A stretch of 41,080 bases of DNA, taken from the NCBI GenBank assembly GCA_902727895.1, contig CACVAP010000031.1, positions 1 through 41,080 on the forward strand. The letters run 5' to 3'. Source of the stretch: an uncultured Sulfurovum sp. GTDB taxonomy: Bacteria; Campylobacterota; Campylobacteria; Campylobacterales; Sulfurovaceae. Both the position numbers and the translations under genes were made by a program. This document shows positions 25,909 through 37,730 of the stretch, in pieces; the stretch's first letter is position 1; each line of letters opens with the position of its first letter. The notes beneath the pieces were generated by a model, which saw only the letters and a list, made by a program, of their open reading frames with translations, was not told where the DNA came from and made no database searches.

Positions 25909-27054
25909 ATCTACAAAAAAACATTTCTTATTCTTATGTTGGTCATATTGACTAACATAAACCTTATGGCGAAAACAGCTAACTATTTACGTCAAACTTC
26001 TCTCAATGAGCATCAATTAAACTTAGTCTTTAAATACCCTATAGGAAATGTAAAACATTTTACTATTAAGGGTAATGGTATTGTAAAACATGTGTATGAC
26101 ATTGAAAATACTTCTTTACCCAGTACTCAAAATATTGGGCAATATAAGGCAAAGGGTGTACAAGCTTTTAGAATAGCCCAATATAACAAAAAAGTTTTAC
26201 GGGTTGTTATAGAAGCAACGCGATATATGAAAGGGAGTTTTGAAATTAAGGGTCGTAAGTTAACACTTCTTTTACCTATGGCTAAGGGGAGTATTAAAAA
26301 GCAAGTAACTTATAAAAAACATGTTGAACAAAAGGTTAAAAAAAACAGTCGAAAAAATACTCAAAAGTCTTATCGGTACAATTCAAAACGAAAATATAAA
26401 ACAATTATCTTAGATGCAGGTCATGGTGGACGAGATGTTGGTGCTTCTTCAAAACATGTGCGTGAAAAAGACTTAACCTTGAGTATGACGTTGAAGTTAA
26501 AAAATATTTTACAAAAGATGGGCTACAAAGTACTGCTTACAAGAACTAAAGACAAATTTATGAACTTAAAGCAACGTACAGATTATGTTTATAATCGTAA
26601 AGGGTCAATTTTTGTCTCCATACATGCAAATGCAGCACCTAAAAAGAGAACGAAAGGTGTTCGCTATGAGGGTATGGAAGTATTTTATTTGAGTTTGAAA
26701 AATTCTAAAAGAATTAGTAAGACAAGAGCTGTCTATCGTGGTAGAAAAGTTTACAGTAAAAGTTCCTACAGAAAAATGGTAAGTTCGTGGAAGTTTTCTC
26801 AGTCTAAAGCGTTAGCGCATCTTGTACGTAAAAATGTACTTTCTAATGTAGGTAGAGAATACAAGATATATGACAAAGGAATAAAGCGAAAAGATTTTTG
26901 GGTATTACTCGCAACCAAAATGCCATCTATTTTAGTTGAGACAGGATATCTAACAAATAAAGATGAAGTTAAGAAACTAAAGGACAGTCATTACCAGACA
27001 TTATTAATGGAAGGTATTGCGAATGGGATTAACCGATACTATGGACTACTTTAA
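25909..27054 (+). CDS. N-acetylmuramoyl-L-alanine amidase (AmiC type), probable ATC start
   Basis: 372 residues from the first ATG (25936) or 381 from the ATC at 25909. I prefer the ATC: AAGGAG (25897-25902) is 6 nt before it, the added residues YKKTFLILMLVILTNINLMA complete a Sec signal peptide with a basic n-region, and no ATG, GTG or TTG lies between. From the ATG the signal would be too short and lack a positive charge. Residues ~30-130 form an AMIN-like beta domain, followed by a basic linker. The Amidase_3 zinc domain starts at about residue 165: LDAGHGGRD, Glu in VREKDL, SIHANAA and LVETGYLTN give His, Glu, His and the catalytic Glu. It cleaves the amide between muramic acid and the peptide in the periplasm, for cell separation. 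Confidence 0.85.
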   Translation: MYKKTFLILMLVILTNINLMAKTANYLRQTSLNEHQLNLVFKYPIGNVKHFTIKGNGIVKHVYDIENTSLPSTQNIGQYKAKGVQAFRIAQYNKKVLRVVIEATRYMKGSFEIKGRKLTLLLPMAKGSIKKQVTYKKHVEQKVKKNSRKNTQKSYRYNSKRKYKTIILDAGHGGRDVGASSKHVREKDLTLSMTLKLKNILQKMGYKVLLTRTKDKFMNLKQRTDYVYNRKGSIFVSIHANAAPKKRTKGVRYEGMEVFYLSLKNSKRISKTRAVYRGRKVYSKSSYRKMVSSWKFSQSKALAHLVRKNVLSNVGREYKIYDKGIKRKDFWVLLATKMPSILVETGYLTNKDEVKKLKDSHYQTLLMEGIANGINRYYGLL

Positions 27055-31374: not shown

Positions 31375-32613
31375 TTATAAATTCTTTTTAGCTGCCAATT
31401 CTCTAAGTTTATCTTTCTTACTTTTCTTCTTGCCTTTAACAGGAGCAGGACCTTTTTGTTTTTTAGGGGCTTCCCCCGTTAATTCATAACCTTTCACACT
31501 TTCACGTTCCAATTTTATTTCGCTACGTTTTTCTATGAGTTTAAAGTGGGCTTGTTCTTCATGTCCTATGAAACTTACAGCCACACCAGTTTCTCCTGCT
31601 CTTCCTGTTCGCCCAATTCTATGAATATAGTCAGCAGGAGAACGTGGTAAGTCAAAGTTTATAATACAGTCTATGCCTTCTATATGCAATCCACGAGAAA
31701 TAATATCAGTGGTAAACAAAACCTGAATCTTTTTTTCTTTAAACGCTTTAATGGTGTAGTTACGATCTTCTTGACTTAAATCAGCATGAAAAGACTCGGC
31801 TAAGTAACCACGTTTTCTAAATTTTTCAGCGATGTTGTCTGTGGCTCTTTTATTTGCCATAAAAACCAGAACTTGTTTCCATTTTTCTTGTTTGAGTAAG
31901 TACCGAAGTACAGGACCTCTGTTTTCAGGGTTTACTTCTATAACTCTTTGCTTTATCTTCTCAACAGTTGGTTCTTCATGTTCTACGCTTACTTTAACAG
32001 CTTCTGTAGTTACTTTGGCAGCAATGTCTAAGATTTTTTGAGGGTAGGTTGCTGAGAAAAGAAGGTTTTGACGCTTAGACGGGATGGCTTTTAAGATCTC
32101 ATCTAACTCTTCTGCAAACCCAAGGTTTAACATTTTGTCAGCTTCGTCTAGTACTAAGTATTCTAAATGCTTTAATGACATTTGATTTTTAGAGAGAACA
32201 TCTAAAAATCTTCCAGAAGTTGCAACTATAACATCACAACCTTTTTGAATGCTATAAATCTGGTCGCCAATACCTTCACCACCAATAACAGAAACTATTT
32301 TTGGCTTAGGGTTAAGTGCCTTAGAAAAGAGTGAAAAAGTTTCACTTATTTGTAAGGTAAGTTCACGGGTAGGGGCTAAAACCAAAACTTTAATTTTTCG
32401 TTTTCCCTCTGTAGGGTTTTGTGCTAAGAGTTCTAAAAGTGGTAAAACAAAAGCAGCAGATTTTCCTGTACCTGTTTGTGCCTGTGCCATAATATCACGA
32501 CGCTCTAGAACCAGAGGTATGACTTTTTCTTGTATGGGTGTGGGTTTTAGGTAGTTGTTTTTTTGAAGTTCTTTTTGGAGTGTGCTACTAAGCCCCAGTG
32601 TGGAAAAACCCAT
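31375..32613 (-). CDS. DEAD-box ATP-dependent RNA helicase (RhlE-like)
   Basis: 412 residues. The Q motif is FSTLGLSSTLQKEL...KPTPIQ, motif I AQTGTGKS, motif Ia PTRELTLQ, motif II DEAD, motif III SAT, motif V/VI DIISRGLHIEGID and HRIGRTGRAG. A basic tail (PKKQKGPAPVKGKKKSKKDK) should bind RNA non-specifically, as in RhlE. It unwinds short RNA duplexes in ribosome assembly or mRNA turnover. Its ATG overlaps the stop of the DUF234 gene by one base (TAATG), so the two are co-translated. One of three DEAD-box genes within 6.4 kb. Confidence 0.92.
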   Translation of the reverse strand: MGFSTLGLSSTLQKELQKNNYLKPTPIQEKVIPLVLERRDIMAQAQTGTGKSAAFVLPLLELLAQNPTEGKRKIKVLVLAPTRELTLQISETFSLFSKALNPKPKIVSVIGGEGIGDQIYSIQKGCDVIVATSGRFLDVLSKNQMSLKHLEYLVLDEADKMLNLGFAEELDEILKAIPSKRQNLLFSATYPQKILDIAAKVTTEAVKVSVEHEEPTVEKIKQRVIEVNPENRGPVLRYLLKQEKWKQVLVFMANKRATDNIAEKFRKRGYLAESFHADLSQEDRNYTIKAFKEKKIQVLFTTDIISRGLHIEGIDCIINFDLPRSPADYIHRIGRTGRAGETGVAVSFIGHEEQAHFKLIEKRSEIKLERESVKGYELTGEAPKKQKGPAPVKGKKKSKKDKLRELAAKKNL

Positions 32614-33536
32614 TAATACTTCTTATTTGTATTAACAAGTAGATCTTCTTCTGAAAGGTCAAGAAGTAAGTTACCTAAACTATTTAAAGAAAAAAGTTGT
32701 AATGTTTCACTTTTTTCTTTTTTTAATTCAGTTGAAAATTTATTTTTAGAGAAAATAACATAAGCGTCTATATCAAGTTTTGCTTTGTGGCATTTTTCTT
32801 GAAGTTTAGTAATCTCATTCTTTTTTGCTTTTGTTTTAGCAAATTTACAAGTACCAGCTATCATTTTTCCAGATTTTGTTTTGGCTAAAAGGTCTATCTC
32901 TACTTGTGTGTCCCAATATGAACCAATACGCATTATTTTGTCGTCAGAATTTTCGTTGTGTGCTTTTTTAACAAGTTCTAAAAAAAGTTGTTGGTAGACA
33001 TGGTTGCTAAATTCCAATTTCATTTCTCTCCAACGGTCATAAAATTCATCGTACTCACCAGCTTTAATACCTTTGTAGTTAGGCGAAATAAGTGCAAACC
33101 AAAAACGCATAAATGGTTGAGAAAAAAGAAGTTTTCCAGAAACTTTTTCATGGTCCACTAAAGGTTTCTCAACAGACTTGTCAGATTTTAAAAGTCCTTC
33201 AGCTATGAGAAAGTCAATAGATTCCTCTCCATGAAGTCGGTCAACCTGTGCTTTTTTAAAAGCAGAATGTTCACGTCTATCTCCCACAGCCAGTGCTGTT
33301 AAAATCTTATGATGAATCTCTTTACTTTGCGTAATCTTTGTGGTGTCACCATGAATGTAACGGTAGTTGTCCAAGACTTTGTCGGCTATGAGTTCATTTA
33401 AAGACTGAGTAAAGTCAACTCTCCAACCCATTCCACCAAAAACAGCGAAGTATTCTAGAGCAGTTTCTAAGTTAGTAGCGTTGTTTTGGTAACAAAAAGA
33501 GCGAAATTGCTGAAGTATGGTAGGTTGTGCAGACAT
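32613..33536 (-). CDS. DUF234 protein without its usual ATPase domain
   Basis: 307 residues. The C-terminal half (KLLFSQPFMRFWFALISPNY...WDTQVEIDLLAKTKSGKMIAGTCKF) matches DUF234, normally found at the C-terminus of archaeal-type P-loop ATPases. It contains a nuclease-like pattern: E/D-IDLLA followed by a strand and G-T-C-K (PD-(D/E)xK fold, with IDLLA as the Asp site). There is no Walker A motif anywhere, so this is a standalone form. The N-terminal ~130 residues look helical, wHTH-like. It is upstream of and translationally coupled to a DEAD-box helicase, so a nucleic-acid role is plausible. Function unknown. Confidence 0.6.
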   Translation of the reverse strand: MSAQPTILQQFRSFCYQNNATNLETALEYFAVFGGMGWRVDFTQSLNELIADKVLDNYRYIHGDTTKITQSKEIHHKILTALAVGDRREHSAFKKAQVDRLHGEESIDFLIAEGLLKSDKSVEKPLVDHEKVSGKLLFSQPFMRFWFALISPNYKGIKAGEYDEFYDRWREMKLEFSNHVYQQLFLELVKKAHNENSDDKIMRIGSYWDTQVEIDLLAKTKSGKMIAGTCKFAKTKAKKNEITKLQEKCHKAKLDIDAYVIFSKNKFSTELKKEKSETLQLFSLNSLGNLLLDLSEEDLLVNTNKKY

Positions 33537-33683
33537 GGGTAAAAGACCTTGGATTAATTTATGGAATTATAACATTATAAAATGAGAAAAATTTAATGAA
33601 ACTAGTATTTGTCTATTTTTATATATTAGAGCTATTAATATCAGAAGAAATTAGCTTATAGTTACTAACTAACTCAATTTGGG

Positions 33684-33689
33684 TATAAT
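33684..33689 (+). promoter_or_regulatory. -10 box for the middle DEAD-box gene
   Basis: TATAAT followed by TC, 29 bp before the proposed ATC start at 33718. The leader of about 22 nt ends with AAAAAGGA. Confidence 0.5.
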
Positions 33690-33717
33690 TCTACTTTTAA
33701 GATAAAAAGGATTTCCT

Positions 33718-35007
33718 ATCAACGCATTTCAAAAATTTAACCTTCACCCAGACATTGTAAAAACCATCACATTTGAAAATGCTACGGCTATCCAAAACAA
33801 GGTAATTCCTGCTGCAATGAAAGGTTTGGACATCATTGGTGCTTCTAAATCTGGTACAGGAAAAACAGTTGCCTATACTTTACCTGTTTTAAACAAAATA
33901 CAAAAAGTTATTAAATCAGAGAATAAAGTTATTCGTGCCTTAGTAATTGTGCCAACCATTGAGTTATGTGATCAGGTTACAAAAACTTTTATGGAATGTG
34001 GTAAACATTTAGACATTCGCGTAGCCAAAGTACAAGGTGGAACACCAAAAAGTATTCAACTTGAGCGTTTGAAAAAGGGTACTGACATTATTGTGGCAAC
34101 TCCTGGACGACTCCAAGACTTTATTAATGACAAAAAAGTTAACCTAGAAAATATTAATACCATTATTTTGGATGAAGCAGATACGATGCTCGAACTGGGT
34201 TTTGTTAACGAAATAAAAGTTATTTTAAATGCCTGTGCGAAACCAAGACAAATTATGATGTTTTCTGCAACCATTTCACAAAATATTAAACGTCTTGCTA
34301 AAGAGTTTTTACGTGAACCTGCCATTGTAGAAGTAAGTAACCGTAGAGACTTGGTTAATGCTATTACGCATAAAGCCTATAAAGTTGATAAAAAACGAAA
34401 AGCAGAAATAGTTGCTAAACTAGTAACGGATCTTGGAATTAAACAGTTGATTTTATTTACTAACACCAAAGAGTCTGCCAATAAGGTTTATGAGTATTTG
34501 AGGTCTGAGAAGATTCGTGTAGCCATCATTCATGGAGATAAAACACGAACAGAAAGAGCAAAGGCATTAAGTTTACTTAAGGCAGAAAAAACGCAAGTGT
34601 TAGTAGCAACGGATATTGCAGCACGTGGTGTAGACATACAAGAACTCCCATATGTTTTAAACTTTGATATTCCAGAAAAAACAGATGCTTATACACATAG
34701 AGTAGGTCGTACAGGAAGAGCAAATCATAAGGGTATGGTTATTTCTCTTTTAACCATTAATGATTACAATAGGTTTTCTGAGATAGAAAAAGATTTACGT
34801 ATTAATATAAAACGAGATGTTTATGAAGGTTTTGAACTGACAGACAAACAGCCTCGACAAAAAAGACCTGTTAAAAAAACTTTACGTGAGAAAAAAGGGT
34901 ATATAGATTACGATAAGAAACGTAAATATACTTATGCAGCACAAAAGAAAAAAAGAGATGAAAAGAAAAAAGACAGCGACAGACGTAAGGGTGAAAAGAA
35001 AAAATAG
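33718..35007 (+). CDS. DEAD-box RNA helicase, probable ATC start
   Basis: 396 residues from the first ATG (33817), but that start lies inside the helicase core and would remove the Q motif. In-frame upstream codons give FQKFNLHPDIVKTITF then ENATAIQNKVIPAA, a complete Q motif (conserved Phe and TxIQ). The frame is open only to the TAA at 33703-33705, and the only plausible start is ATC at 33718, 6 nt after AAGGA (33707-33711); no ribosome site precedes 33817. From ATC the protein has 429 residues. Motifs: SKSGTGKT, DEAD, SAT, ATDIAARGVDI, HRVGRTGRA. A long Lys/Arg tail follows residue ~380. Role in RNA remodelling. Confidence 0.88.
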   Translation: MNAFQKFNLHPDIVKTITFENATAIQNKVIPAAMKGLDIIGASKSGTGKTVAYTLPVLNKIQKVIKSENKVIRALVIVPTIELCDQVTKTFMECGKHLDIRVAKVQGGTPKSIQLERLKKGTDIIVATPGRLQDFINDKKVNLENINTIILDEADTMLELGFVNEIKVILNACAKPRQIMMFSATISQNIKRLAKEFLREPAIVEVSNRRDLVNAITHKAYKVDKKRKAEIVAKLVTDLGIKQLILFTNTKESANKVYEYLRSEKIRVAIIHGDKTRTERAKALSLLKAEKTQVLVATDIAARGVDIQELPYVLNFDIPEKTDAYTHRVGRTGRANHKGMVISLLTINDYNRFSEIEKDLRINIKRDVYEGFELTDKQPRQKRPVKKTLREKKGYIDYDKKRKYTYAAQKKKRDEKKKDSDRRKGEKKK

Positions 35008-35141
35008 GGAGATATAGTGCAGTTCATTTTGGACTGTTACTTTATATAAAAAATAAAAAGATTAATATAGTAGAAAAATTATTAAGTATTTGTAAATAAG
35101 TATAGGGTATTTGTTTTTGAAGTGATAAAAATAAGAAGAGG

Positions 35142-35168
35142 AGTATAAGCGAAAAGATCGCTTATACT
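35142..35168. terminator. Hairpin between the DEAD-box gene and cspA (converging)
   Basis: A 10-bp perfect stem (AGTATAAGCG / CGCTTATACT) and 7-nt loop lie 13 bp past the cspA stop and 134 bp past the helicase stop. On the minus strand T/C-rich sequence follows. It probably ends the cspA mRNA and possibly both. Confidence 0.5.
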
Positions 35169-35180
35169 AAAAGTCGAAGC

Positions 35181-35399
35181 TTAAAGAGCTGTTACGTTCT
35201 CTGCTTGAAGACCTTTTTCGCCTTGAGTTACTTCGAAAGAAACTTTTTGTCCGTCGTTAAGTGAAACTCTGTCATAACCTGTGTTATTAATGTTACGGAA
35301 GTGTACGAATACATCTTTTCCACCATCATCTTGCTCGATAAAACCGAAACCTTTTTCGCTGTTGAACCATTTTACTGTACCGTTTACTAATGCTGCCAT
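35181..35399 (-). CDS. Cold-shock protein, CspA family
   Basis: 72 residues, the full single cold-shock domain. RNP1 is KGFGFI and RNP2 is VFVHF, both with the aromatic residues that stack on single-stranded RNA. The opening [12 protein letters not shown] and the ending GLQAENV are standard. It melts or protects RNA and may respond to cold or growth phase. AAGGAA precedes the ATG by 6-7 nt. The leader on the minus strand is AT-rich and contains a hairpin further up (35496-35521). It sits among DEAD-box helicase genes, which act on the same kind of substrate. Confidence 0.95.
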
Positions 35400-35495
35400 A
35401 TGTAATTCCTTGTGTGTTGTGTTTTAAAATCTAATTATGAAATATCTATGGGTGTCATTTTACTATAAACAGTTAGTTCTAATATAAAGCGTGCC

Positions 35496-35521
35496 AAAGA
35501 TGAAATCCAGAAATCATCTTT
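35496..35521. terminator. Hairpin between yebC-like gene and cspA
   Basis: An 8-bp stem (AAAGATGA / TCATCTTT) with a 10-nt loop lies 58 bp after the yebC-type stop and 97 bp before cspA on the same strand. There is no U-tract. It may be a weak terminator of the upstream gene or a leader structure for cspA. Confidence 0.3.
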
Positions 35522-35578
35522 CATTCCCAGCAGTATAGCTCAATTTTATATAAATAACAACTATATCTCTAAATACAG

Positions 35579-36316
35579 TTAATTTATATTTGTATACACA
35601 GCTTGAACGTCTTCATCTTCTTCTAATCGGTCTATAAGAACATCAACTTCTTCCATGTGTTCATCGCTAAGATCTATAGGTGTGCTAGAAATATATTGAT
35701 GTTCACCTTTAGTAACTTCGATGTTCATTTCTTCAAGTGCTTTAGATAAATCACCAAAAGCAGCGAATTCTCCAAATACCCTAATAATCTTTTTATCATC
35801 TGCATCTTCTTGTGGCTCAATGTCTTCCTCTATTTCTTCAAGACCAGCATCAATAAGTTCTAGTTCTAACTCTTCTAAATCCATCTCATCTGTTTTATCA
35901 AATGTAAATACTGATTTACGGTTAAACATGAAGTTTAATGAACCTGATGTAAGCATTTCAGCTGAATTACGAGAAAGGGCTGCCTTTACATTGGCTACAG
36001 TACGTGTTCCATTGTCTGTTGCACAGTCAATAATAAACTGTGTACCATAAGGACCTTTTGCTTCATAGTGCATCTCTTTAATGTCAGCAGCATCTTTACC
36101 AGATGCTCTCTGAATCGCTGCTTCGATATTATGTTTAGGCATGTTTTGAGCTTTTGCCGTTAAGATTGCTGTACGAAGTCTAGGATTCATGTCAGGGTCA
36201 GGGCTTCCTGCTTTGGCTGCCATGGTAATTACTTTTCCTAGTTTAGGGAATATCTTAGACATTGCCCCCCATCTTTTCATCTTTGCTGCTTTACGGTATT
36301 CAAACGCTCTACCCAT
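35579..36316 (-). CDS. YebC/PmpR family protein
   Basis: 245 residues, standard three-domain size. The opening MGRAFEYRKAAKMKRWGAMS differs from classic YebC (which opens AGHSKWxNIKxRK) and marks the second YebC-type branch seen in several phyla. The family core follows: LGKVITMAAKAGSPDPDMNPRLR, AKAQNMPKHNIEAAIQRASG and YEAKGPYGTQFIIDCATDN. Members were long annotated as transcription regulators; recent work ties several to relief of ribosome stalling, for example at proline stretches. Which role applies here is not visible. It is divergent from the third DEAD-box gene (91 bp gap) and followed by cspA on the same strand. Confidence 0.88.
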   Translation of the reverse strand: MGRAFEYRKAAKMKRWGAMSKIFPKLGKVITMAAKAGSPDPDMNPRLRTAILTAKAQNMPKHNIEAAIQRASGKDAADIKEMHYEAKGPYGTQFIIDCATDNGTRTVANVKAALSRNSAEMLTSGSLNFMFNRKSVFTFDKTDEMDLEELELELIDAGLEEIEEDIEPQEDADDKKIIRVFGEFAAFGDLSKALEEMNIEVTKGEHQYISSTPIDLSDEHMEEVDVLIDRLEEDEDVQAVYTNIN

Positions 36317-36374
36317 AAAAAATCCTTTTATTCAGTTAAAAAATATTAATGAAATTATAGCCTAAATATTTTGT

Positions 36375-36380
36375 TATAAT
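36375..36380 (+). promoter_or_regulatory. -10 box for the third DEAD-box gene
   Basis: TATAAT followed by TC, 28 bp before the TTG start at 36408, with TTAGGA between. Confidence 0.5.
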
Positions 36381-36407
36381 TCTAAATCTAATCTATTAGG
36401 ATTTTCT

Positions 36408-37730
36408 TTGTCATTCAAAACATTAAAGCTAAGCCCAAAACTTCTCAAAACACTTGAAGAACTCAATTATAATACAGCCACAGAGATTCAAGAAAAAAGT
36501 ATACCTTTGCTTTTAGAAGGAAAAGACGTTTTAGCAACTTCTCAAACAGGGACAGGGAAAACGGCTGCATTTGTATTACCAATGCTTGAAAATTTAAAAG
36601 AGAGTGATGTCGTAAAGACTGGTGATGCTCGGTATAAAGTTCAAGCACTTATCTTAGCACCTACACGTGAGCTAGTAATACAAATACATGAAAAAACAGA
36701 AGAATACTCTAAAGAATTTACGCATAAGTCAGTGGCTCTTTTTGGAGGTATAAAGTTAGGTTCACAAGTTTCGGCCATACGTTCTGGTGCTAATATAGCA
36801 GTAGGGACAACAGGTCGCGTACTGGATCACATAAAAAATGGCTCATTAAATCTAAGTGAAGTAGAAATTATAGTACTAGATGAAGCAGACAAAATGCTAG
36901 AGATGGGTTTTATTGATGATATTCGTCGAATTGTTGCGTTAACGCCAAAGGAGAGACACTCTGTAATGTTTTCAGCTACTTTTCCTAAACCCATTATGAC
37001 ACTGGCAAGAACGTTTTTAAAAAATCCAATAACTGTTGAAATAGACAAAGAAAACTTAGCGACCAAACAAGTAAAGCAAATGGTTAATTATGTAAGTGAA
37101 GAAGATAAGATGCTTTTATTATGTAAGGTTATTGCTGAGAATAAATGGCAACAGGTATTGGTGTTTACAAACACGAAACTCCAAGCAGATAAAATTGTAG
37201 ACAATTTAAAAAGTTCAAAGATAAAAGCACTTGCCATTCATGGAGACAAAAGTCAAGGAATGAGAAGGGAAGGGTTGCGAGATTTTAAATCTAATGAGAT
37301 TTCAGTGTTAGTTGCAACGGATGTAGCAGCAAGAGGAATTGATATTATTAATTTACCTCATGTTATAAACTTTGAATTACCACTAAATAATGAAGATTAT
37401 GTACACCGTATAGGTAGAACAGGTCGTGCAGGTCAAAATGGTATGGCTTTGTCGCTTATTTGTGAAAAAGAGATTCCTCAGTTAAAAGAAATAGAAGCGT
37501 TAGTAAATAAAGAACTTGAAGTTTTTGAAACTGAAGGCTTCTCACTTGTTTCGAGTAAAATCCCAACGAATCGAAAGTTAAAAAAAGAAATTAAGAAGCA
37601 AGGTGTAAATATGAAGAAAGCTAAAGAATTAGCAGAAAAGATGATGGGAAAAGAAGGAATGGGAACTAATGATACACCAAGTAAGAAAAAACCAGGTGGT
37701 AAGAAGCCCACAAATAAGCGACACTTCTAA
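36408..37730 (+). CDS. DEAD-box ATP-dependent RNA helicase
   Basis: 440 residues starting with TTG; AGGA lies 6 nt upstream and the protein begins directly with the Q-motif region (FKTLKLSPKLLKTLEELNYN, TEIQ). Motifs: TSQTGTGKT, PTRELVIQ, DEAD, SAT, ATDVAARGIDI, HRIGRTGRAG. The C-terminal ~60 residues are Lys/Gly-rich (KKKPGGKKPTNKRHF). It unwinds RNA. It has its own promoter. Compared with the other two helicases here, it keeps the canonical motif set and differs mainly in the tail, so the three may have separate targets. Confidence 0.93.
   Translation: MSFKTLKLSPKLLKTLEELNYNTATEIQEKSIPLLLEGKDVLATSQTGTGKTAAFVLPMLENLKESDVVKTGDARYKVQALILAPTRELVIQIHEKTEEYSKEFTHKSVALFGGIKLGSQVSAIRSGANIAVGTTGRVLDHIKNGSLNLSEVEIIVLDEADKMLEMGFIDDIRRIVALTPKERHSVMFSATFPKPIMTLARTFLKNPITVEIDKENLATKQVKQMVNYVSEEDKMLLLCKVIAENKWQQVLVFTNTKLQADKIVDNLKSSKIKALAIHGDKSQGMRREGLRDFKSNEISVLVATDVAARGIDIINLPHVINFELPLNNEDYVHRIGRTGRAGQNGMALSLICEKEIPQLKEIEALVNKELEVFETEGFSLVSSKIPTNRKLKKEIKKQGVNMKKAKELAEKMMGKEGMGTNDTPSKKKPGGKKPTNKRHF

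Follow-up and report, generated by a model that had tools for sequence, protein, structure and literature searches.

As judged from its sequence and that of its orthologues, the gene for a DEAD-box RNA helicase in the window (the whole stretch analysed, 41,080 nt of an uncultured Sulfurovum sp.) begins at AUC. This start appears to be real and selectively maintained rather than an error, because all 72 orthologues carry an AUH codon (AUC, AUU or AUA) at the aligned position, the Shine–Dalgarno (SD) sequence ahead of it is nearly invariant, the genes form one clade and AUC is over-used relative to the isoleucine codons of the gene body. Conservation of an AUH start between species is known for only a few bacterial genes. 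The helicase adds a case to this small known kind, unusually clean in that the rule holds in 72/72 over two families.

The features of the window are collected in Table 1. The preliminary description had claimed that the Q motif is encoded ahead of the first ATG, and this is borne out: that ATG sits after the Q motif and just before motif I, and translation from it would therefore lose the Q motif. It had also named ATC as the sole fitting codon in the frame that opens after the TAA, with AAGGA 6 nt ahead. Indeed, in-frame ATG, GTG, TTG and CTG are all absent between the TAA and the ATC, the spacer reads TTTCCT (6 nt) and the same class of codon recurs in every orthologue. The interval first given, 33704-33819, covers the 5′ end of the helicase, while the whole gene extends over 33718-35007. 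The promoter placed about 20 nt upstream stood in part: a TATAAT box is present, but the automatic promoter scan missed it because no −35 element matches. TATAAT-like boxes lie upstream of 65/72 helicase orthologues, and the predicted leader of about 20–25 nt is free of ATG, GTG and TTG in every frame. The helicase gene is probably monocistronic, since a −10-like box of its own precedes it and the next gene downstream is read from the other strand.

Table 1. Coordinates of the features discussed, numbered from the first letter of the window
Feature	Position	Strand	Remarks
N-acetylmuramoyl-L-alanine amidase gene	25909..27054	+	AUC start; signal peptide IYKKTFLILMLVILTNINLMA; AAGGA 7 nt upstream
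DEAD-box gene	31375-32613	minus	ATG start
Candidate −10 box TATAAT	33684..33689	+	Direct reading; without −35 match
Stop codon TAA closing the frame	33703..33705	+	In-frame, 4 codons upstream of the start; direct reading
Shine–Dalgarno sequence AAGGA	33707..33711	+	6 nt before the start codon; AAGGA in 69/72 orthologues
Predicted start codon ATC, non-canonical	33718..33720	+	Direct reading and orthologue comparison
DEAD-box RNA helicase gene, CshA/RhlE-like	33718..35007	+	429 aa; Walker A ASKSGTGKT
Q-motif region (F ... TAIQ)	33727..33795	+	Entirely upstream of the first ATG
First in-frame ATG	33817..33819	+	Codon 34; start of the automatic ORF call
Cold-shock-protein-like gene	about 35182-35399	minus	Adjoins the helicase gene, on the other strand
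DEAD-box gene	36408-37730	plus	TTG start

The helicase gene, both other DEAD-box genes and the cold-shock-like gene all lie within 6.4 kb (31375-37730). Gene order around the helicase is only partly conserved, because among 35 loci compared at ≥50% identity a YebC/TACO1-like neighbour recurs in eight and the helicase at 36408 in one. An Rfam search found no RNA element. An open frame at L218:14107-14685 contains internal repeats (PNIFHFRLLIFYCNTFFFIIF) as well as a stretch of masked bases.

The translation contains the Q motif (TAIQ), motif I (ASKSGTGKT) and the DEAD box that define DEAD-box RNA helicases, and the Pfam domains DEAD (PF00270, 160.8 bits) and Helicase_C (PF00271, 106.4 bits) were both detected above cut-off. 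Its best solved relative is CshA (5ivl), in which residue 3 pairs with residue 3 of the helicase counted from the ATC; the ATC thus lies at the place of CshA Met1. The protein resembles the CshA and RhlE helicases in having the whole helicase core, with the alignment beginning at residue 3. Unlike them, it scores below the NCBIfam equivalog cut-offs for CshA (345 bits versus 646) and RhlE (340 versus 743), and it carries the unusual Walker A of the AUH helicase clade, with Ser before GTGKT, GSGKT or GTGKS.

Orthologues were assembled from 34 relatives in named genomes and further sequences from a phylum-wide search, and their starts were read at the aligned codon, giving 72 distinct helicases with a readable N-terminus, the window included. 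The start codon is ATC in 44, ATA in 16 and ATT in 12, and ATG, GTG, TTG and CTG were found in 0/72. The preliminary description, which dealt with AUC, had overlooked both this interchangeability with AUU and AUA and the conservation of the helicase start across families. An AAGG-type SD precedes all 72 starts (AAGGA in 69), at 6 nt in 63 orthologues, 7 nt in seven and 5 nt in two, and among the 35 orthologues examined the first downstream canonical codon comes at codon 14 or later. The gene thereby shares with those of the infC/ccpN type an AUH start (72/72), a well-spaced strong SD and the absence of a usable canonical start nearby.

In a tree of 117 rows (71 AUH helicases and 46 paralogues), the AUH helicases formed a single clade with an SH-aLRT support of 100, inside which AUH codons replaced one another at least 14 times. 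Paralogues start with ATG (37/46) or TTG (7/46), the other two being L068 and L159. The latter (G039:C1:785943-786185, minus strand) carries ATC at a position that is ATG in its relatives, and no SD is suitably placed before it. L148 and L155 owed their AUH membership to a script label and were removed from the set, as their real start is an ATG at the next codon. The best relatives come from metagenome assemblies assigned to Sulfurovum or 'Campylobacteraceae', and the window itself is contig 31 of a 2.96 Mb genome. Besides the Sulfurovum group, the AUH clade takes in a second family, which is probably Arcobacteraceae given that a named member of the clade is Arcobacter sp. SZUA-1382.

AUC, AUU and AUA together make up the isoleucine codon set, so the conserved codon could in principle be an ordinary isoleucine of a protein that begins further upstream or is reached through a frameshift. 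We consider this extremely improbable, and the upstream sequence already contradicts it. An in-frame stop lies within five codons upstream in 31/72 orthologues and within ten in 50/72; no in-frame ATG, GTG, TTG or CTG occurs upstream in 67/72, and the last 25 nt before the start are free of ATG, GTG and TTG in any frame in 65/72. In the Sulfurovum-type set, diversity by codon position over the 60 nt upstream is 0.63/0.60/0.61, with no periodicity, against a periodic 0.26/0.04/0.41 over codons 2–17, and the distance to the SD is fixed. Codon choice at the start also differs from that for isoleucine within the gene: ATC makes up 61% of helicase starts versus 17% of body isoleucine codons (p 6e-17, a value that overstates the significance because the sequences are related and not independent). 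In the second family, ATC occupies 16/37 starts versus 10% of body isoleucine codons, even though C is found at only 3.5% of four-fold sites. An error of sequencing, or an ATG-to-ATC change private to this assembly, has no point in its favour and is refuted by the recurrence of the codon class in 72 separate assemblies; we give it practically no credence.

We consider it moderately likely, by analogy with infC, sigR and ccpN, that a strong ribosome-binding site combines with IF3 proofreading to keep initiation on the helicase mRNA low but adjustable. The strong SD (AAGGA, 6 nt) would position the 30S subunit together with an ordinary initiator tRNA at the AUC, whose third base mismatches the CAU anticodon. 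IF3 proofreading would then discard most such complexes and hold helicase synthesis low, and synthesis would rise if IF3 ran short in relation to free 30S subunits or if proofreading were relaxed. Selection would retain any AUH codon and bar AUG, since AUG would abolish the control. The first residue would presumably be fMet, with IF3 as the discriminator and an output that is regulated, not merely low. Because a weak SD alone could give low output, the combination of a strong SD with a weak codon is an infC-like signature. The E. coli IF3 feedback loop would not be built alike here, because infC in the same genomes starts with UUG.

The same sequence facts, beginning with AUH in 72/72, would also be expected if the start were a fixed throttle that keeps the helicase scarce without responding to IF3 or to the state of the ribosome, and weak starts are known to lower output (PMC13009471, PMC13068326). 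A near-invariant strong SD at optimal spacing would nevertheless be an odd route to low output, and we regard a fixed throttle as rather unlikely. The perfect SD, its fixed spacing and a codon that is never AUG lead us to favour control of the IF3 type over this reading and over the near-neutral relaxation of start-codon recognition considered below. A point against IF3 control is that IF3 rises in the cold in E. coli (PMC6511841); if it does so here too, repression would strike a cold-type helicase just when the cell needs it.

The preliminary description had suggested that the lineage tolerates AUC initiation, citing as a second case the amidase in the window. The amidase does start with AUC, and AUH (AUU, AUC) recurs in its orthologues in at least three genomes, others having UUG or AUG. 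The equal spacing ascribed to the two genes was mistaken, as the amidase spacer is 7 nt, not 6 nt. The clearest second case is queH: its start is AUA in the window's genome (L224:6151; G000:C74:44151) and AUH in 14 of the 17 genomes of the genus in which it could be read (L242-L262), and most other families have ATG or TTG at exactly this codon. SD-preceded AUH was also found in about 6/7 genomes of the genus for an ApbE-family gene (L204:5387, L384-L389), and AUA with AAGGA in 3/3 copies found of a protein family without Pfam assignment (L209:5217, L382, L381). In many Campylobacterota, AUU is the only plausible start of rnpA, within the 3′ end of rpmH (L204:19058 minus, L272-L300); it was not taken as independent evidence because the overlap with rpmH forces it.

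We scanned 642 kb of the window's genome and 1.2 Mb of one sister-genus genome for AUH positions that follow a good SD and lack a canonical start both upstream and over the 9 or more codons downstream. In the window's genome, 6/145 AUH positions passed versus 6/1109 other codons (p 0.001), one of the six (31322) being false; in the sister genus, 0/340 passed. The false case, ATC 31322 on the minus strand before a thioredoxin gene, lies upstream of the −10-like box TTTGCTACAAT, and ATG 31292 fits as the start. The ATC of dctM (L234:247) was likewise set aside: in most orthologues an ATG occupies the next codon, and the ATC is at best private to the window's genome. In 117 pairs of orthologues whose N-termini are conserved, no true AUH replaced a canonical start of the sister genus, the three printed cases adjoining an ATG.

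Of the lineage-specific changes envisaged at first in IF3 and initiator tRNA, those in the tRNA did not show up in the anticodon stem-loop, which in each of the three initiator-type genes is the standard GGGCTCATAACCC with CAU. In IF3, 19 positions separate the genus from seven outgroup sequences, which are too few to link these differences to AUH use. The genus has Ser at the site matching E. coli R99, which we take to be Ser in B. subtilis as well. The start of infC was UUG wherever readable in the phylum sample (L102-L131).

AUH starts thus appear to be a minority feature of the genus, at roughly 1% of genes, and that of the helicase to extend more widely. The tolerance proposed earlier holds as an enrichment of AUH that recurs in queH, apbE, the amidase and one more family, but not as a general relaxation, because the 117 pairs yielded no true AUH, the initiator stem-loop is ordinary and infC starts with UUG. 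If start-codon recognition were relaxed in the lineage, AUH starts could drift in near-neutrally; the enrichment in the window's genome against none in the sister genus, the AUH starts of the additional genes in relatives and the IF3 differences are in keeping with this. In contrast, AUG reappears at the helicase start in none of the 72 genomes, those outside the genus included, and together with the 117 pairs and the normal initiator stem-loop this makes near-neutral drift quite improbable. More speculatively, the helicase, queH, apbE, the amidase and other genes of one Campylobacterota genus may together form a small post-transcriptional regulon in which AUH initiation senses the ratio of IF3 to ribosomes, built on an older AUH helicase that the second family shares; we regard this scenario as unlikely.

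Since the three AUH codons interchange while AUG is excluded, the helicase offers a good natural test of selection on weak output versus IF3 sensitivity. Gene finders restricted to ATG, GTG and TTG truncate or misplace its N-terminus, as in the ORF call of the window, in which the Q motif is lost. The employment of AUH starts in several genes of one genus would, as a recurrence, be new.

A search of the open-access literature retrieved no paper on AUH starts in this helicase or in the phylum. The classical case is E. coli infC, the gene for IF3, whose start of the AUU/AUC/AUA type underlies autoregulation by IF3. The helicase gene resembles infC in a conserved AUH behind a good SD and in serving RNA or translation metabolism; it differs in not being infC, in that the local infC starts with UUG, and in implying no autoregulatory loop. 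E. coli pcnB is likewise an RNA-metabolism gene limited by an AUH start, although it encodes poly(A) polymerase and not a helicase; its AUU has reportedly been proposed as a fixed limit on output. In Streptomyces, sigR has a GTC start whose repression by IF3 was shown experimentally (PMC5472188). It shares with the helicase a conserved non-canonical start outside infC that is usually mis-annotated, but the codon is GTC, the hosts are actinobacteria and the IF3 effect has been demonstrated. Fixed AUH starts have also been described for infC and rnhC of Listeria (PMC13068326). In S. aureus and B. subtilis, ccpN starts with AUA and cvfC1 with AUU, with an extended SD and initiation seen by Ribo-Ret, and in S. 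aureus the conserved AUH and strong SD of both genes are accompanied by lower output (PMC13009471). These genes are like the helicase in combining a conserved AUH with a strong SD, and unlike it in encoding a regulator and a small protein, in belonging to Firmicutes, in their extended SD and in having their initiation observed by Ribo-Ret.
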